Assembly: GCA_029212615.1 (NCBI GenBank)
Contig: JARGPJ010000002.1
Location: 496,001 to 560,000, forward strand
DNA: 64,000 bases
Source of the DNA: Verrucomicrobiales bacterium
GTDB taxonomy: Bacteria > Verrucomicrobiota > Verrucomicrobiia > Verrucomicrobiales > DEV007
Reading direction: 5' to 3'
Shown: positions 13,226-26,481 of the stretch, piece by piece
How the letters are laid out: every line of letters starts with the position of its first letter
Position numbering within the stretch: position 1 is the stretch's first letter
Notes under the pieces: model-generated
What the model saw: the letters and a program-made list of their open reading frames with translations, nothing else
Told to the model about the DNA's origin: nothing
Database searches by the model: none
Made by a program: the position numbers and the translations under genes

Positions 13226-13322
13226 TGGCGGAGAGGGAAGGAATCGAACCAACCCCGGTAAGGATCACTCACCGACAACGGTTTTGAAGACCGCGGGGCC
13301 CACCAGGTGCCCATCTCTCTCC
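13226..13322 (-). tRNA. selC: Selenocysteine tRNA, anticodon TCA
   Basis: The minus strand folds as a tRNA-Sec. It has an extended acceptor arm starting GGAGAG and ending CTCTCC, discriminator G and encoded CCA. The D arm has a GGGC/GCCC stem. The anticodon stem GCGGT/ACCGT holds loop CTTCAAA, so the anticodon is TCA. The long variable arm has a seven-pair stem (CGGTGAG with CTTACCG), and the T loop is TTCGATT. The length of 97 bases including CCA matches bacterial selC (95 in E. coli). Odd points: the acceptor has one A-C mismatch at its seventh pair, and the T stem reads GGTTGG against CCTTCC, with two facing T-T positions and a total acceptor plus T branch of 12 instead of the usual 13 pairs. 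It decodes the UGA in the selenoprotein at 17610-17936. Confidence 0.93.
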
Positions 13323-13441: not shown

Positions 13442-14770
13442 CTACCAGAACCATCCCCCGGCATTGGCAGATCCCTGGCCGAGGTTTAAACCAATACCTT
13501 GATTAGCTGTCGCCGAGCCCCCGCCGAGATTACCCGCAACGCCCTGATTAGCTGTCGCCGATCCTTCCCCCACGTTTGCCGCAGCGCCATTCGTTGCACT
13601 AGCCTCACCCTCACCTACATTGGCTGCCACGCCCTGGATGGCGCTCGCAGAACCCTCGCCCACGTTCGCTGCTATCCCGTTTAAAGCGCCGGCTTGGCCT
13701 TCTCCAATATTGGCAACCGCTCCCTCTCCACCCAATATTACCTGCGGCGAACCGGTAGTAGTCATTGCTGGATCAGAGGAATCATTTCCGGACGACCAGC
13801 CAAGGTTGAGAGGGCTCCCGCCTGAACTCGATTGACCAAGGGTAATTCCCAGTCCGAGCAGGCCTATCGCAATTTGCCCCTCTTCAGCCATGGTATCACC
13901 TGAAAGGACACCGAGTGCGATCCCTCCATCCGATGAAGTATCTCCACCCGACAAGGCCCCGAGGGCAATCCCGCCATTCGACGAGGTATTTCCACCCGAA
14001 AGCGCATTCAACGCAATGCCCCCATTCGCCGAAGTGGCGTTGCCGGAGCCTAAGTTGACCGCAACCCCACCAGAGCTACTCGGCGCCGCCGCACCTGCGC
14101 TACCTGACGGGCTCACAGGCAAACCGGAACCTGTCATCGAAGCCGGCGTAGCAGCGACCGGATAAGACGAAGAAGCGGAGACCGGAGTAAAATCTGATAC
14201 AGGTGCAAGCTCGTTAGGTGTCGCTTCTACATAATCCCAGATCCAGTTCCCCTGAGAGGCATAGCTGACTGATGATGAGCGTCCGCCACCGGGGGACTCT
14301 TCATCGGACACCTCGCGGTCGAGACTGAATGATTTAATTCCATCACGCTGCGATACGGTGATTAAGAAACGGGATGTAGAAGGGTCCCAGTACGCCCGGG
14401 AAGCGCTCGAACTCCTTTCCTTTTCGTCCATCCACACGCACTGCAGCCGTTCATCAATCGTCGAACCCGATCCTAAACCGACAAACGTCTGCCGGTCAGT
14501 CTCAGAAAGTTTTGACCTAAGTTCCCGAAATACCTCCTCCGGGGTTTCCAACCCATTCAGATCGCCTCCTGCCGCGAGATGCAAAAGGATCGCACGATTC
14601 AATGTGCTCACGTCACTCTCCAACTTTAACTTCCTCGACCTGTCATTGATCGTTCCCGCCACGTTTATCATGATCGATGATATCATCGCCACGGCTACCA
14701 CCATGACTAACAAATCAAAGACAGATGCTCCTCTAACCCGAGTGGTGCTGTTTCTGTCGTAAGCAATCAT
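13442..14770 (-). CDS. Pilin-like N-terminus fused to two glycine-rich repeat arrays
   Basis: I do not recognise a named family for this 442-residue protein. Residues 1-45 resemble a type IV prepilin leader plus hydrophobic helix (RGASVFDLLVMVVAVAMISS), but the prepilin Glu at +5 is Leu. Residues 50-180 form a small globular part with pseudopilin-like features. After a Ser/Pro/Ala linker (180-232) come two repeat arrays: about four units of 16 residues of the form GGIALxxLSGGxTSSx (about 234-300), then six units of 15 residues of the form GxAANVGEGxAxAxx (about 350-436). The protein ends GGWFW. It is probably a surface fibre or matrix protein. It lies between selC and the cysteine desulfurase on the same strand without clear operon spacing. 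Confidence 0.75.
   Translation of the reverse strand: MIAYDRNSTTRVRGASVFDLLVMVVAVAMISSIMINVAGTINDRSRKLKLESDVSTLNRAILLHLAAGGDLNGLETPEEVFRELRSKLSETDRQTFVGLGSGSTIDERLQCVWMDEKERSSSASRAYWDPSTSRFLITVSQRDGIKSFSLDREVSDEESPGGGRSSSVSYASQGNWIWDYVEATPNELAPVSDFTPVSASSSYPVAATPASMTGSGLPVSPSGSAGAAAPSSSGGVAVNLGSGNATSANGGIALNALSGGNTSSNGGIALGALSGGDTSSDGGIALGVLSGDTMAEEGQIAIGLLGLGITLGQSSSGGSPLNLGWSSGNDSSDPAMTTTGSPQVILGGEGAVANIGEGQAGALNGIAANVGEGSASAIQGVAANVGEGEASATNGAAANVGEGSATANQGVAGNLGGGSATANQGIGLNLGQGSANAGGWFW
13463..13723 (-). repeat. Coding tandem repeat, 15-residue (45-base) period, six units
   Basis: This is the second array of the pilin-like protein (residues about 350-436). Each unit follows GxAxNxGxGxAxAxx, with only conservative changes between units. 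At DNA level the units share the words coding for AANVGEG but differ at third positions, so the array is not a recent duplication. The regular spacing of Gly and Asn suggests a beta-solenoid or stacked fibre. Confidence 0.7.
13847..14071 (-). repeat. Coding tandem repeat, 16-residue period, about four units
   Basis: This is the first array of the pilin-like protein (residues about 234-308). The units run GGVAVNLGSGNATSAN, GGIALNALSGGNTSSN, GGIALGALSGGDTSSD and GGIALGVLSGDTMAEE, then fade into GQIAIGLLGLG. The period differs by one residue from that of the second array, so the two arrays probably form separate segments of one fibre. Confidence 0.7.
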
Positions 14771-15238: not shown

Positions 15239-16369
15239 CTAACTAACGATTCTTGCAATCAGCTCCACCGCCTCATCCACTTCCTCCTGCGTCGTGAAAA
15301 TAGACAGCGAAAGCCGCAGGCTGCTGAAGGCTTTCTCATCAGAGAACCCCATCGCTTTCTGGACATGACCGGGCTGACTTTTCCCGGTCATACACGCGCT
15401 TCCGGCGGAGCATTGAACTCCGGCGGCATCCAGTTTCGGGAGAAGCCCGGCGGCGACCCGCCCGGGAAAGGAAACATGAGCGACATTGCCGGTGCGATGC
15501 TCCCGCGATCCATTAAACTCAACCCTGTTCAGCCTCTCACCCAACCCTGTCTCAAGCCGATCCCTGAGCGCGGCGACTCGATCGAGCCCGCCATTTCCGG
15601 CTTCCTCCATCATGATGGAAGAAGCTTCGCCGAGAGCAACGATATAAGGGACGTTCTCGGTGCCACTGCGGTGCCCGCCTTCTTGCCCTCCCCCCCGAAT
15701 CATGGGCTCAAACGGCGTTCCTTTTCGGATAAAAAGAGCCCCTACTCCTTTCGGTGCATGGAACTTGTGTCCACTGATAGAGAGGAAGTCGACAGGCACC
15801 TCATCGACGCGGACAGGAACTTTACCAACGGCTTGAATGGCATCAGTGTGCATCCACCATCCGGCAGCTTTCGCAATTTCAGTGGCCTCCATCATCGGCT
15901 GAACGACACCTGTTTCGTTGTTCGCCCACATCAAGGAGGCAAAACCGGGCTTCGAGCTGTCGACGACGTTTTCAAACTGATCGAGATCAAGGCGTCCATT
16001 GTCATGTACACCGACGCGCTCAACATCGAACCCGACGGCAGCCATCGCTTCGGTGGGCCGGAGAACAGCACTGTGCTCAATCTCACTGACCGCGACCCTG
16101 GACGACTTCCTTCCAATCTCGCGGGCGAGTGATTTGATGACCATGCTGTTCGACTCTGTTCCACATCCCGTGAAAACTATTTCATCCGGCTCCGCACCAA
16201 TGAGGGCGGCAACCTGCTCGCGAGCCGTTTCAATAGCTACCTTCACTTCACGCCCCGCTGCGTATCCGCTCGACGGGTTGTACCAGGCTCCGGTTAAGTA
16301 CGGCATCATTGCCTCGACAACTCGTGGATGCACCTGTGTCGTCGCGTTGGAATCGAGATAAATGGACAT
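15239..16369 (-). CDS. NifS/IscS-family cysteine desulfurase, possible selenium donor
   Basis: This 376-residue PLP enzyme removes sulfur (or selenium) from cysteine (or selenocysteine) to an active-site Cys persulfide. The PLP lysine is Lys202 in SISGHKFHAPKG. The catalytic loop CSAGSACMTG has Cys320 and the likely nucleophile Cys326. The N-terminal IYLDSNATT and the RSGTEN phosphate-binding region are intact. It starts 14 bases after the stop of mnmH on the same strand, so the two are very likely one operon. No iscU, iscA or iscR gene is nearby. That setting, within a selenium neighbourhood, suggests it may supply Se for selenophosphate or tRNA selenation, or the S for the thiouridine precursor, but the sequence itself cannot distinguish S from Se use. 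Confidence 0.93.
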   Translation of the reverse strand: MSIYLDSNATTQVHPRVVEAMMPYLTGAWYNPSSGYAAGREVKVAIETAREQVAALIGAEPDEIVFTGCGTESNSMVIKSLAREIGRKSSRVAVSEIEHSAVLRPTEAMAAVGFDVERVGVHDNGRLDLDQFENVVDSSKPGFASLMWANNETGVVQPMMEATEIAKAAGWWMHTDAIQAVGKVPVRVDEVPVDFLSISGHKFHAPKGVGALFIRKGTPFEPMIRGGGQEGGHRSGTENVPYIVALGEASSIMMEEAGNGGLDRVAALRDRLETGLGERLNRVEFNGSREHRTGNVAHVSFPGRVAAGLLPKLDAAGVQCSAGSACMTGKSQPGHVQKAMGFSDEKAFSSLRLSLSIFTTQEEVDEAVELIARIVS

Positions 16370-16383
16370 TGGTCGAACCTGAA

Positions 16384-17448
16384 TTAGAGAAGAAGAGAAG
16401 GCGCCAGCCGTCTGATTTGCTCCGCCGCTTCCTTTATCGCAATGGAATCATGCGAAAGTAACTGTACCGTCGCTGAGGGAACCTGATAGTTTCCACTCCC
16501 GTCAACCGTGTAGCGGTGGTCGTAGTGTTCAGTGAGGAGTTCGACCACAAAAGGATGCCACTCTCCGGCTTCAGTCATCGTTTTCCATCGAGCCAGAGTC
16601 TTGTTGGCATGAAACCCTGCGAGCCGATCAATGGTGTCATGAACACGATCCAGATTCCCGACCCACTCTTCGTAGTCGCCCGAAAGATAACGTGCTCGCG
16701 CTTCAACCGGGGAATCAATTTCTATCACCGGAGAACCCTTTAGTTTCTGCCACAGTGGGTTGGGTAAATTTAATTTCCCGATCTTAGCGCTCTCCGCCTC
16801 AATGTAGAGAGGACGATTCATATCAATCGATTCGAACTTCTTAAAAATGAGCGACTCAAACTGCTTTTGGGCTGGCTGCGGATCGTCAGGATCACCACCA
16901 AAGACAGATCCTTTATGCCTGGCGATACCCTCAAGGTCGAGGACCTGCTCGCCCATTCGGTTCAACTCGGCAAGGAGCAGCGTCTTCCCCGCACCGGTGT
17001 ATCCGTTCAAAACGATGAGCTTCAGCTGCGGCGACTTCACCTTGATTGACTCAACGACGGTGGATCGATAGGCCTTATATCCCCCGCAAATGAGCGAAAC
17101 ATCCCAGCCAACGTCACTCAGCACCGTGGCCATGCTGCCCGATCGCTGGCCACCCCGCCAACAATAGACGAGAACCCGATAATCTTTCGGTTTCGACGCA
17201 AAATGGCTGTCGAGATGGTTGGCAATATTCCGCGAAACGATAGCAGCGCCGAGCTTTCTGGCATCAAAAGCGGAAACCTGTTTATAGATCGTGCCGACCT
17301 TAACCCTCTCTTCATCGCTGAGAACAGGAAGATTGATTGCCCCGTCGAGATGGTCCTCTTCAAACTCTCCGGGCGAGCGGACATCGACGATTTCCTGAAA
17401 ACCGGAAAGATCGGCAGGAAGGGAAATTATTTCGATATGACGACTCAT
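16384..17448 (-). CDS. mnmH: tRNA 2-selenouridine synthase (MnmH/SelU)
   Basis: This 354-residue enzyme replaces sulfur by selenium in 2-thiouridine at the wobble position of some tRNAs, using selenophosphate and a geranylated intermediate. An N-terminal rhodanese domain (about 1-130) carries the active-site Cys96 in VLVYCWRGGQRS. The C-terminal P-loop domain has NGYTGAGKT at about 148-156. Length and order match E. coli MnmH, whose catalytic Cys is at nearly the same position. It is first in a probable operon with the cysteine desulfurase and diverges from the selenoprotein gene across 161 bases. The required selenophosphate synthetase SelD is not in the window. Confidence 0.96.
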   Translation of the reverse strand: MSRHIEIISLPADLSGFQEIVDVRSPGEFEEDHLDGAINLPVLSDEERVKVGTIYKQVSAFDARKLGAAIVSRNIANHLDSHFASKPKDYRVLVYCWRGGQRSGSMATVLSDVGWDVSLICGGYKAYRSTVVESIKVKSPQLKLIVLNGYTGAGKTLLLAELNRMGEQVLDLEGIARHKGSVFGGDPDDPQPAQKQFESLIFKKFESIDMNRPLYIEAESAKIGKLNLPNPLWQKLKGSPVIEIDSPVEARARYLSGDYEEWVGNLDRVHDTIDRLAGFHANKTLARWKTMTEAGEWHPFVVELLTEHYDHRYTVDGSGNYQVPSATVQLLSHDSIAIKEAAEQIRRLAPSLLL

Positions 17449-17609
17449 GAAAGGGACTCGAACGACAACACAGGAAGGTAAACGTTCAAGATGACTTACG
17501 ACTTTATTTTAACAATCATGGGGAATTTTCTGTCATGAATCCCACTCTCAAGCGTATAAAACAGTGCGGAACCGATGACGTAATGCCGTCGGGGCCGCCA
17601 ATCAATAAT

Positions 17610-17936
17610 ATGAAAAAATTAATCGCAACACTAGCGGTGACGATTCTTGCTTTTGCTCCGGCATTTGCAGAGGAAGTCACTTATGTAGCCGGCATGACCG
17701 GCGTCGTTTGAGGTGGATGTAAGCGTGACGTCAGTTCGGCGTTCTCTTCTCTGCCAGGTTTCACGTCCATCACTGTAGAGGATGGCGAAGAAGCAGGAAC
17801 TCAAAAGGTTACCGTCATCACCGATGGTTCCGAAGAAATCAGCCAGGAGGCCGCGATCGAGTCTCTCGGCAGCAAAGCCAGCAAGTACGTCGTACAAAGC
17901 TGGGGCGTCGAAGGCGCTGAACCTGAGGAGAGCTGA
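17610..17936 (+). CDS. Secreted HMA-like selenoprotein with in-frame TGA (Sec34)
   Basis: The gene reads 108 codons through one in-frame TGA at 17709-17711. Residues 1-20 are a clear signal peptide (MKKLIATLAVTILAFAPAFA). The mature part begins EEVTYVAGMTGVVUGGCK, so Sec34 and Cys37 form a U-x-x-C pair where heavy-metal-associated (MerP-like) domains have CxxC after GMT. The following pattern (VSSAFSSLPGFTSITVEDG, then KVTVITDG, then a helix EAAIESLGSKA) matches the beta-alpha-beta-beta-alpha order of that fold. The frame stays open for 74 codons after the TGA with normal composition and ends at TGA 17934-17936, just before a terminator. A tRNA-Sec gene is 4 kb away and mnmH is divergent. Read conventionally the gene would be a meaningless 33-residue peptide. 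It is probably a periplasmic redox or metal-binding protein. Confidence 0.88.
17727..17743 (+). promoter_or_regulatory. Candidate bacterial SECIS hairpin
   Basis: Directly after the UGA the mRNA can form GACGUC/GGCGUU, a six-pair stem with two G-U pairs, closing a five-base loop AGUUC (17733-17737). The loop starts 21 bases after the UGA and has G as its second base. This fits the general bacterial SECIS pattern (stem-loop within the coding region, 16-37 bases after UGA, G among the first two loop bases). The stem is short and the flanks pair poorly, so the exact fold is uncertain. Confidence 0.6.
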
Positions 17937-17964: not shown

Positions 17965-17996
17965 AAGCCTCGTTGTCTCGGCAGCGGGGCTTTTTT
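17965..17996 (+). terminator. Rho-independent terminator after the selenoprotein gene
   Basis: AAGCCTCG (17965-17972) pairs with CGGGGCTT (17985-17992), eight pairs including one G-T, and is followed by a run of six T (17991-17996). It begins 29 bases after the selenoprotein stop and separates that gene from the next operon. Its position supports the stop at 17934-17936 as the true gene end, so the gene is monocistronic. Confidence 0.85.
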
Positions 17997-23265: not shown

Positions 23266-26200
23266 ATGATGCGCCTTTCCCGACCCTGTTCACTTAGCGA
23301 CTTGACCCTCTTGGTTATCGCCTTGTCAGGACTGCCATGGCTGAGCCCGTCCGGCCATGCTGAGGATGCTTTCTTGAAATGGAGGAACGGGGATTCCCTC
23401 AAAGGTGACCTCCTCACCAGTTCAGATAAGATCATCAACTGGAAAGCGCCACCGTTCGCGGCGCCTCTCAGCATTCAGGTCGAGCAGCTTGAAGGCATTC
23501 GCCTTCCCCGGCAATCGAAGACAAAACAAGCTCCGCCTCCCGCCCCCTTCCGACTGCTTTTGAAAAACGGAGATCGCCTCGAAGGCGAGTTGGAATTTAT
23601 CGATGAAAAGGCGATCGGCTTTCTGGCGGTTCCCTTTCAGGAAACAGCGCGAATCCCGAAAGCGCATGTCGAGCGCCTCATCCACGTCGGAAGTGATTAC
23701 CTTCGATACTCGGGCCCGAGCGATCTCGACAGCTGGACATCGAGCGGGCGTGATCGGAAAATTTCAGAGTGGCACACTGATCTCACCGGGGCTTTTGCGA
23801 CCCATCAGTGGTCAGGAAATCTCTTCCGTGAAATTGAGTTTCCAAAAGCGGTTGAAATTCATTTTCAAGCTGCTTTTCCCCTTGGGTCTCCCAACCTGGA
23901 AATAGGACTTGTCCGCGGCGCAGACCTCGGGCCCAAGATTGAAACCTGGGATAACTTTCTGGTACTGACTTATCGAAGTCAGTTTGTGCCCGTGATGGAA
24001 TTAGGTGAAGAAACGAAACGATTGGACTTTCGTTTTCTCTGGGATCAGACCACAGGCAAACTTCTCCTTTGCGACCCTTCCGGCAGGAAACTGGCGTCCA
24101 TCGATCGAGCCCTCGTTGACAGGCGCGCCTCAGACTCCACCAAATCCAGGGCTTCTGATCCTCTTATTCGGGGGTTCTCCATTCTCAACCACACCCCCGA
24201 ATTGAAACTTCTCTCCCTCTCGGTTCAAGAATGGAACGGAAAGGACCCTGCTGTAATCAACCTGGCAAAACCCCGCCTCCTCATGGCAGGCCGGGAGCCA
24301 CAATTCGCGACGGACAGGGTTCGACTGTCCGCCGGGTCAAACTCGATTCGAACCGGCTCCGGATCCTACCCTATTGAAGAGCTACAGGAATTCATTCTCG
24401 GCGTGAAAGATAGTGTCGACCCAACTCCGGAAAAGGAATCGAACAGCCGGATAGCGTGGCACGACGGCAGCAGCATCAGCGGCCGCCTCACCCGGCTCGA
24501 GGAAGGAAGCGTTGCCATCGAAACAGACTGGTCTCCAGGCGAGCTGCAACTCAATCTGAACAACGCAAAAGAGATCCGCTTTCCCAACGAAGAGATCGCG
24601 CCGATTGCGGGGACGGATCAACTCGAAGGCGAAGGCTACGGTCTACGTGGAGCCGTTCGCCCCCTCGCACAGAAACAAGGGCAGAGCCTTACCGGGTGGC
24701 TCTCCCCCGGGGCAACTCATCCTGTTCCATTCTCAGATACGACCTCCGCCAAAGTGACGAGATATCCCCATGCTTCCGCAAATCCCGATCTCACCAGCCT
24801 GATCGGCCAGACGCGCGTTTATCTGAAGAACGATGAAATTCTCGTCGGCTCACTCATCTCAATCGAACATGAGGCGATTGAATTTTCGAGTAAAGTTACC
24901 GGCCCGATTAATATTCCCACTTCGAATGTTCGTGCAGTCGACATAGGCAGCTCGGGCCGTCTTCTTGAGGGGTTTGCAGACCTGGAGTGGGAGGAAATCG
25001 AAGACCATGAAGATGACGTCAGTCTGACACGTGACACCGCAATCATTCGAGCAGGCGGCTTCGGCAATCCCTCTCTCGTTCTCGGTGATCGCATTCATTT
25101 TTCAGCGAAATGGAAACAGACCTATGGAGCAGTGACCCTTAAGCTGTTTGCAAATGGTTTTGAGGAGAATTCGCCGTCGACCGACATCATCATCGCGGCG
25201 CAGGGCAATCGACTCTTTGTGGGGAAATTGAAAGAAAGCGGCGCCTTTTCTTTCTCCGGTGATCAAATCCCGATGGTCGGCGATATTGCTGAGTTCGAAA
25301 TCCGGATGGAAGGAGACAATATCGAAGTCATCGTTAACGGGAAGACTTCGATCGATATTGTGATTGAAGAAGGCCGCGTTTCAGGAAACGGAATCTACTT
25401 CAAAATGGGAGGCGGATGGCAAGGATGGAATCAGTCTGACAATGAAATAACGATCTCGGATTTTCGAATCGAGCGCTCACCCGGAAGTATCCCCCGGAGA
25501 GTGATCGATCCATCTGCTAAGGAGATGTCGCTTGCGCTGCCGCGGTCCCGTCGCAGCCCCGCCCCGCGCCATCTCCTTATCGCGCCGAACGGTGACCTGC
25601 TTCGCGGGCAACTCAATTCAGCAACGGCTAAAGGAGTGAACTTTCGCGTCAACGAAACGACCATCGATCTCCCCACAGAACGGATCTCAGCCATCGTCTG
25701 GCTGAATGCAGCTGTTTCTGCAGAAGAAGAAGCTGAGGAAGTCAGCGGGGCTGATCAAGCCGGGGAAGAAGATCTGACAGCACCCTTAACCGTCACCCAT
25801 GAATTTGTTCTCATGGATGGCAGCCGCCTGAACTTACACGCGGATGAAGTCGTGAATGAGAAGTTTGTCGGAGAGTCAAGCCTCCTCGGCACCTGCACCA
25901 TTGCCATTGACAACATTCGTGAAATGAAACGTGGCCCCGCTCGATCGGCCTCGGAGCTGGAGTCATTCGAAATCGGAGCCTTTAAAGACTGGACCCTCAA
26001 GCCAACGCCGGATCCCGTCATCCCCGGGACTGAAAGTAACTCCCCTTCTCCACTCGTCGGAAAAGAGGCTCCTTCCCTGGAACTGACCATGCTCGATGGA
26101 TCCATCTTCAAGCTCGCAGAGCACCGTGGCAAAGTCGTTGTTCTCGACTTTTGGGCAACCTGGTGCGGCCCATGCATCAAAGCGATGCCGGACATCCAGC

Positions 26201-26481
26201 AAGTTGTTGCGGCAATGCCTGAAGGAGCCGTGACCCTTTGCTCCATCAATCAAGCAGAGTCTCCCCCCATTATCAGCCAGTTCCTCGAATCGAGAAAATG
26301 GACAGATCTCCCGGTGACTCTCGATTTTGACATGAAAGTGAGTAGAGCTTATCTCGTCGAAGAGATTCCGCATACCGTCGTGGTGGGCAAAGACGGAAAG
26401 GTTCACTGGGTCCACGAAGGCTACTCGGAAGACCTTCAAGAGAAACTGTTCAATGCGATCGCAGAATCACTGCAACAATGA
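23266..26481 (+). CDS. Large secreted protein with repeated NGD motifs and C-terminal TlpA-like thioredoxin
   Basis: This protein of about 1071 residues has an N-terminal signal region (about 1-32, ending GHA). Small beta units recur through it, each carrying a variant of 'dG(D/S)xlxGxL': WRNGDSLKGDL (about 43), LKNGDRLEGEL (about 103), WHDGSSISGRL (about 402), LKNDEILVGSL (about 525), APNGDLLRGQL (about 775) and MDGSRLNLHAD (about 850). A segment around 590-745 resembles a LamG/DUF1080-like beta-sandwich (SAKWKQTYGAVTLKLFANG, then FRIERSPGS). The C-terminal 130 residues are a TlpA-type thioredoxin with active site W966-C967-G-P-C970. It is probably periplasmic or surface-bound and last in the DUF4175-like operon. 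The reductant partner is unknown. Confidence 0.82.
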   Translation: MMRLSRPCSLSDLTLLVIALSGLPWLSPSGHAEDAFLKWRNGDSLKGDLLTSSDKIINWKAPPFAAPLSIQVEQLEGIRLPRQSKTKQAPPPAPFRLLLKNGDRLEGELEFIDEKAIGFLAVPFQETARIPKAHVERLIHVGSDYLRYSGPSDLDSWTSSGRDRKISEWHTDLTGAFATHQWSGNLFREIEFPKAVEIHFQAAFPLGSPNLEIGLVRGADLGPKIETWDNFLVLTYRSQFVPVMELGEETKRLDFRFLWDQTTGKLLLCDPSGRKLASIDRALVDRRASDSTKSRASDPLIRGFSILNHTPELKLLSLSVQEWNGKDPAVINLAKPRLLMAGREPQFATDRVRLSAGSNSIRTGSGSYPIEELQEFILGVKDSVDPTPEKESNSRIAWHDGSSISGRLTRLEEGSVAIETDWSPGELQLNLNNAKEIRFPNEEIAPIAGTDQLEGEGYGLRGAVRPLAQKQGQSLTGWLSPGATHPVPFSDTTSAKVTRYPHASANPDLTSLIGQTRVYLKNDEILVGSLISIEHEAIEFSSKVTGPINIPTSNVRAVDIGSSGRLLEGFADLEWEEIEDHEDDVSLTRDTAIIRAGGFGNPSLVLGDRIHFSAKWKQTYGAVTLKLFANGFEENSPSTDIIIAAQGNRLFVGKLKESGAFSFSGDQIPMVGDIAEFEIRMEGDNIEVIVNGKTSIDIVIEEGRVSGNGIYFKMGGGWQGWNQSDNEITISDFRIERSPGSIPRRVIDPSAKEMSLALPRSRRSPAPRHLLIAPNGDLLRGQLNSATAKGVNFRVNETTIDLPTERISAIVWLNAAVSAEEEAEEVSGADQAGEEDLTAPLTVTHEFVLMDGSRLNLHADEVVNEKFVGESSLLGTCTIAIDNIREMKRGPARSASELESFEIGAFKDWTLKPTPDPVIPGTESNSPSPLVGKEAPSLELTMLDGSIFKLAEHRGKVVVLDFWATWCGPCIKAMPDIQQVVAAMPEGAVTLCSINQAESPPIISQFLESRKWTDLPVTLDFDMKVSRAYLVEEIPHTVVVGKDGKVHWVHEGYSEDLQEKLFNAIAESLQQ

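Follow-up and report, generated by a model that had tools for sequence, protein, structure and literature searches.

A gene for a putative selenoprotein with a heavy-metal-associated (HMA) domain was found in the window, by which we mean the whole 64,000-nucleotide stretch of Verrucomicrobiales DNA that was analysed. Codon 34 of this gene is an in-frame TGA, and comparison of the sequences indicates that it is selenocysteine (Sec) and not a stop, because the TGA is conserved, a hairpin lies downstream of it, the Sec machinery is present and the gene co-occurs with selA. On balance we favour the reading that the product is a true selenoprotein, an exported HMA domain whose Sec/Cys pair would bind a soft metal in the periplasm, the metal binding being the part that we infer. 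The features of the window are listed here by position and strand.

17610..17936, + strand: gene of the putative secreted selenoprotein of HMA type (Pfam PF00403), 108 residues with Sec at position 34 and TGA as the final stop; orthologues have the same start and TGA
17610..17669, + strand: N-terminus resembling a signal peptide, as read from the sequence; its 20 residues end in A-F-A (A-x-A cleavage pattern)
17709..17711, + strand: codon 34, an in-frame TGA interpreted as Sec, at the U of U-G-G-C; TGA in 45 of 46 motif matches
17728..17742, + strand: SECIS-type apical hairpin ACGUC-AGUUC-GGCGU, 5 pairs, loop 17733-17737 with G at loop position 2
17975..17990, + strand: terminator-like hairpin with T-run, 3' of the terminal TGA
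17449..17609, no strand: divergent intergenic region common to mnmH and the Sec gene, with blocks conserved in the genus
16384..17448, - strand: mnmH, tRNA 2-selenouridine synthase, divergent neighbour (NF008752, 440 bits against a cut-off of 266)
15239..16369, - strand: cysteine desulfurase, NifS/IscS-like (Aminotran_5; TIGR03402 416.6 bits, below the cut-off of 530.75)
13226..13322, - strand: tRNA-Sec, anticodon TCA (ARAGORN; RF01852 61.5 bits against 47)

A preliminary description of this DNA had proposed a signal-peptide-like start, an in-frame TGA within U-G-G-C and 74 further open codons, and the sequence bears out all of these together with their coordinates. The open codons extend to the terminal TGA at 17934-17936, and the translation around codon 34 is MTGVV-U-GGCK. 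Where a good terminator had been placed after the stop, there is a terminator-like hairpin at 17975-17990; the tRNA-Sec gene in the window and the divergent mnmH were confirmed, the latter scoring above NCBIfam cut-offs. The conserved SECIS-type hairpin straight after the TGA is an addition to that description. Orthologues have comparable N-termini, and the confidence of the structure model is low in this segment; the basis for export is the signal-peptide-like pattern, which suggests that the Sec protein leaves the cytoplasm.

Conservation of codon 34 and the downstream hairpin

The motif was searched in 74 genomes of the taxonomic family with codon 34 left free. The 46 matches obtained, in 40 genomes, comprised 45 with TGA (39 genomes) and one with GAG, and none of the 46 had a Cys codon at this position of the Sec-form motif. 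The GAG match (G448) looks like chance and was rejected; the sole profile hit in that genome (E 7e-6) is on another contig. All 35 family genomes without a TGA match were searched again with a protein profile (12 in one round, with G438 as a check, and 23 in another), which added five TGA forms outside the strict pattern (G425, G433, G434, G436 and G458). With motif pattern and profile search taken together, the Sec form was carried by 44 of the 74 family genomes.

A protein search of 56 genomes, the window's own and those of relatives, gave matches at 73 places in 44 genomes. The codon at the homologous site was TGA in 28 places and a Cys codon in 45, with no other codon seen; the breakdown for 72 of the places was TGA 28, TGC 31 and TGT 13, and the 73rd place, also Cys, is outside the hairpin, residue and tree counts. 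Similarity among the homologues goes on past the TGA to the C-terminus, and the site is always Sec or Cys. A homologue check had been proposed in the preliminary description; when it was run, no homologue ended naturally at residue 33, Sec/Cys was conserved, and similarity was found downstream of the TGA. The read-through translation, with C in place of U, passed the Pfam HMA gathering score (residues 31-87, 27.8 versus 24.8 bits). Because this match above the cut-off crosses the TGA, the pattern around the in-frame TGA is not due to chance.

If the TGA were a true stop, the gene would encode a 33-residue exported peptide or be a decaying pseudogene. The same gene does use TGA as its terminal stop too, but the in-frame TGA is retained in nearly all motif matches, dozens of species keep the frame open past it, similarity to HMA domains continues after it, and the hairpin that follows covaries. 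We regard this reading as extremely improbable and rejected it on the conservation of the TGA, the intact frame and the similarity beyond the TGA.

The hairpin begins after 16 nt past the TGA, and nucleotides 20-24, numbered from the T of the TGA, pair with 30-34. Its loop is either AGUUC or CGUGx; positions 2 and 3 of the loop are always G and U. The complete 5-bp hairpin was present in 50 of 51 Sec forms versus 0 of 44 Cys forms, the 51 sequences consisting of the one in the window and 50 matches at the 48 further loci of the collection scan described below. Over the five pairs, 99.6% of cells were paired; pair 21-33 was seen as C-G, U-A, A-U and U-G, and pair 24-30 as C-G and U-A. Cells changed on both sides numbered 12 versus 1.6 in shuffles, a count that kinship among the sequences inflates, as it does the other covariation counts. 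The covariation score was 0.197 versus 0.102 in shuffles, and at most 0.06 when the partner was slid by 1-3 columns. Two of the five covariation measures did not go beyond the range of the shuffles, namely double-changed pairs (2 versus 1.0, equalled by 65 of 500 shuffles) and further pair types (5 versus 4.0, equalled by 73 of 500 shuffles). RNAalifold independently returned the same hairpin. Each of bases 21, 24, 30 and 33 falls on a third codon position, so that protein constraint is an unlikely cause of the pairing.

Folding of 66 or 44 nt of the window's RNA showed no clear gain in stability over shuffles and favoured another pairing; the 21-nt hairpin by itself was moderately favoured over shuffles (z -1.5). 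According to the available portion of PMC1088965, the bacterial SECIS is a stem-loop immediately downstream with a small apical loop containing G, and in the Sec gene a stem-loop of this kind lies just 3' of the TGA. A covariance model run on the gene's own genome found no other convincing SECIS site, the next match (19.6 versus 59.7 bits) being the Cys paralogue, and no second match to the hairpin pattern was found in the window.

The collection scan was run over bacterial and archaeal genomes with an exact pattern that contains the TGA and is therefore silent on TGA conservation. It returned 51 stretches, 48 of them with real members in records titled Verrucomicrobia or its orders, families or (once) species. 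Those from Prochlorococcus (L084), Draconibacterium (L098) and Betaproteobacteria (L115) were chance matches without similarity outside the motif and were left out of the hairpin counts. In a class-wide sample of 384 genomes, which had one other genome of the genus, the pattern occurred only in the window's own genome, and no plasmid homologue was found at E 1e-5. Two HMA domains are fused in tandem in L109 (2735-3202, where the contig ends inside the second domain) and L119 (around 1143-1547); these proteins have two in-frame TGAs, and a separate hairpin follows each TGA.

Selenocysteine machinery and gene neighbourhood

The window's own genome holds selA, selB, selD and tRNA-Sec, with selA, selB and selD located ~27-35 kb upstream of the Sec gene on the same contig. 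The selD gene (G000:C18:485452-486381, L148) contains an in-frame TGA, and SelD of this genome is probably a selenoprotein itself. Between selA and selB, outside the window, lies an ABC transporter consisting of a PF12974 binding protein, an ATPase and two permeases (L146 4261-11221; G000:C18 about 478.3-485.2 kb), which is a candidate selenium importer. A PF12974 binding-protein gene also comes after selA in L129, L130, L131 and L145. Two tRNA-Sec genes lie close to each other in L131 (11887-12681).

selA scored above its cut-off in 40 of the 44 Sec-form genomes as compared to 7 of the 30 others (p = 2e-9, unadjusted for kinship); by the motif pattern alone, the figures were 36 of 39 and 11 of 35. 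The Sec-form genomes without selA above the cut-off were G426 and G454, in which a partial selA fell below it, and G438 and G436, which are 53% and 59% complete. The reverse case, selA present and the Sec form not found, was seen in G002, G004, G016, G022, G430, G431 and G459; five of these seven are at most 83% complete, and G004 and G016 are over 90%. SelB, counted by hand in the set of 56 genomes, occurred in 20 of 24 Sec-form genomes versus 8 of 32 others. In the motif search, the Sec motif of this one Verrucomicrobiales family had TGA only and was largely confined to genomes with Sec machinery.

The contexts of 19 relatives were compared. A divergent mnmH with the NifS-like gene behind it was found in 14 of them, and tRNA-Sec was within the examined stretch in 12. 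By genus, mnmH was divergent in 14 of 15 relatives in the window's genus, as well as in the window itself, and in 0 of 4 in other genera; the neighbours of the Sec gene are selenium genes within the genus and variable outside it. Ten neighbour proteins were scanned from eight contexts outside the cluster, of which eight matched unrelated families (among them helicases, a lyase and lipases), one had Sel1 repeats and one had no match. No metal transporter, reductase or sensor was found among the scanned neighbours of the Sec form. The NifS/IscS-like cysteine desulfurase in the window is possibly the Se donor.

In a 15-sequence alignment (75% consensus) of the region between mnmH and the Sec gene, the blocks CTTACA, TGTCAC and CGTATA were conserved, and a scan of 17449-17609 for the sigma-70 consensus gave no hit. 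The arrangement makes it possible that the two genes share regulation. Two further window genes were noted: a 442-aa ORF between the NifS-like gene and tRNA-Sec (13442-14770, - strand), with no Pfam or NCBIfam match, and the gene of a 1071-aa protein with a C-terminal thioredoxin/AhpC-type domain (23266-26481, + strand), which belongs to a series of genes downstream of the Sec gene that is found again in relatives.

The HMA fold and the Cys-form relatives

HMA domains are known for metal transfer, and their usual motif is M-x-C-x-x-C. The HMA pattern recognised in the preliminary description held up in Pfam, in a profile match to solved HMA domains (ATP7B, CopZ, MerP and ZntA) and in a structure model with beta-alpha-beta-beta-alpha-beta topology (pLDDT 83). 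Position 34 aligned with the first Cys in both alignments shown, both to ATP7B, and Sec34 and Cys37 are at the start of helix 1 in the model, the HMA metal site. No Foldseek match reached E <= 0.001, and both HMA and other ferredoxin-like folds are among the top hits. Like the PF00403 domains of CopZ, MerP, ZntA and ATP7B, the Sec protein passes the domain score and has the same topology; unlike them, it is a putatively exported single domain in which the first Cys is Sec and the Met of the motif is Val. The ligands are U-x-x-C instead of the C-x-x-C of PF00403, a Sec-for-Cys variant of the site, and the paralogues have Cys at this position, in agreement with the earlier proposal that Sec takes the place of the first Cys. 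MerP (TIGR02052) is also a small exported single HMA domain and was the best NCBIfam match (23.6 bits), but the Sec protein is far below its cut-off of 92.55 bits, and no mer genes were found among the 10 scanned neighbours outside the cluster or the scanned window neighbours.

Alignment A2 contains 40 Sec rows and one Cys form; the rows were taken from the 44 of 51 with a clear start and stop, and those with ambiguous letters or tandem copies were left out. U34 and C37 are the sole invariant Sec/Cys positions in the alignment.

A Cys-form HMA paralogue (L002 1492-1800) is 40% identical to the Sec protein over residues 8-100 and likewise has a signal-like N-terminus and an HMA domain. It differs in having Cys, with D/E before it, in the absence of the hairpin and in its zinc-uptake neighbours. 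In L002 (1-3159), the gene of this putatively exported protein adjoins ZnuA and a ZnuC-like ATPase, an arrangement that recurs in the genus and suggests an HMA step in zinc uptake. A divergent gene of this locus encodes a 435-aa protein, unmatched in Pfam, of which a long segment is rich in His, Asp and Glu. The stretches examined around the Cys form comprise 44 places. ZnuA was present in 16 of these, and 27 had at least one of ZnuA, ZnuC and a protein related to the His-rich one; L002, from which the queries came, is included in the count. Neither ZnuA nor a relative of the His-rich protein was found in the 19 Sec contexts.

The residue before U in the Sec forms was T in 20, V in 7 and K in 1 (n = 28), and D/E in none, whereas 28 of the genus's 30 counted Cys paralogues have D/E before the first Cys; a 31st, outside the count, has K. 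As in ZntA, an acidic residue before the first metal ligand has a role in the zinc-type HMA site, and the Sec form does not have the zinc-type D/E-C-x-x-C. The 30 Cys paralogues of the genus formed one clade in the tree (support 100/100), and by its sequence the Sec form is a clade separate from this zinc-linked paralogue. The tree of Sec and Cys forms, which has few columns and long branches, contains 2 changes, from which no order of Sec versus Cys can be read. Cys homologues of the GVVCxACS type occur in nearby families and in the selA-less family genomes G447, G460, G461 and G462; because of these four genomes, the statement that Cys orthologues are altogether absent from the family was withdrawn. 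The GVVCxACS homologues may be orthologues of the Sec form.

Possible function and relation to described selenoproteins

In the mechanism that we propose, SelA, SelB, SelD and tRNA-Sec would decode UGA codon 34 as Sec with the help of the hairpin just downstream, and the mature exported single HMA domain would present a selenolate/thiolate pair (Sec34/Cys37) at the metal site. In the periplasm this pair would most likely bind a soft ion with affinity for selenium, for example Hg(II), Cu(I), Ag(I) or Cd(II), and then scavenge the ion or pass it on. Because it has T, V or K and not D/E before U, the Sec form has most likely diverged in its specialisation from the genus's zinc-linked Cys paralogue, and the absence of the acidic residue points to Hg, Cu, Ag or Cd over zinc. 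The more specific proposal of a Sec-dependent periplasmic metallochaperone, with Se as a metal ligand outside the cytoplasm and not as a redox catalyst, and with the zinc-uptake Cys paralogue as its counterpart, is a tentative one. Our estimate for it was lowered slightly because selA-less family genomes carry the GVVCxACS Cys homologues.

Its main rival is a redox role, in which U-x-x-C would form a selenenylsulfide and the protein, built on an HMA scaffold, would serve in the periplasm as a reductase or as a scavenger of peroxide. UxxC is named as a redox motif, and most uncharacterised selenoproteins are judged likely to be redox proteins, in the available portion of PMC13188914. The lack of a metal-handling gene among the scanned neighbours of the Sec form is in keeping with such a role, and so is the finding that U34 and C37 alone are invariant among the Sec/Cys positions of the alignment. 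The fold, however, is that of HMA and not thioredoxin, HMA domains are associated with metal transfer, and the Cys paralogue of the genus recurs beside zinc-uptake genes; we judge a redox role to be rather unlikely. The protein could instead be dedicated to selenium, and sense, store or pass on selenium or metal-selenium species for the selenium gene cluster. In 14 of the 19 contexts the gene is divergent from mnmH, and in 12 it is near tRNA-Sec, which would fit such a role, as would the conserved intergenic region shared with mnmH and the ABC transporter with a PF12974 binding protein between selA and selB of the same genome. The gene is outside the selenium cluster in other genera (0 of 4 contexts), however, the seven selA genomes in which the Sec form was not found include two (G004 and G016) over 90% complete, and the clustering may merely reflect a common need for Se, which leaves this role quite improbable.

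An inventory from 2026, covering 119 families and subfamilies of prokaryotic selenoproteins, has no PF00403 entry in its available portion (PMC13188914). Table 1 of that inventory does include a cation-transporting ATPase E1-E2 selenoprotein (TIGR01525) with UxxC, and the metal-binding NF041115 (UxxU) and a MerT-type protein (PF02411) are also given as selenoproteins. TIGR01525 and NF041115 resemble the present case in that Sec is predicted in metal-handling proteins, within UxxC or UxxU; they differ from it in that the former is an ATPase and the latter a different family, which was not among the NCBIfam matches of the Sec protein (E up to 0.01). Table 2 of the 2008 GOS marine survey lists a 'Mercuric transport protein MerP' selenoprotein with 2 sequences and 0 Cys homologues (PMC2398784). 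The table row is for a Sec-containing MerP-type protein from marine metagenomes and gives neither domain nor motif, and it is possible that the entry was an earlier glimpse of the Sec HMA family. No other stand-alone HMA selenoprotein was found in the available portions of the literature, including PMC9312934, PMC1794560, PMC8318568 and PMC12013277. The Sec form of the HMA metallochaperone domain is probably an undescribed selenoprotein family. Reading the TGA as a stop breaks the gene into two fragments, so that gene callers of the usual kind would overlook it, and no NCBIfam 20.0 model matches the Sec protein above its cut-off; it therefore appears that a conserved family of selenoproteins has been left without a model.

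The Sec gene offers a marker of the Sec trait in Verrucomicrobiales. If Sec is a metal ligand in this minimal HMA domain, the protein would be a small, clean system for measuring what Se contributes beyond S in metal binding, and a single genus naturally supplies paralogues with Sec and with Cys for such a comparison. For the bacteria themselves, the Sec HMA protein suggests that metals, or redox stress, are handled by means of selenium outside the cell membrane.
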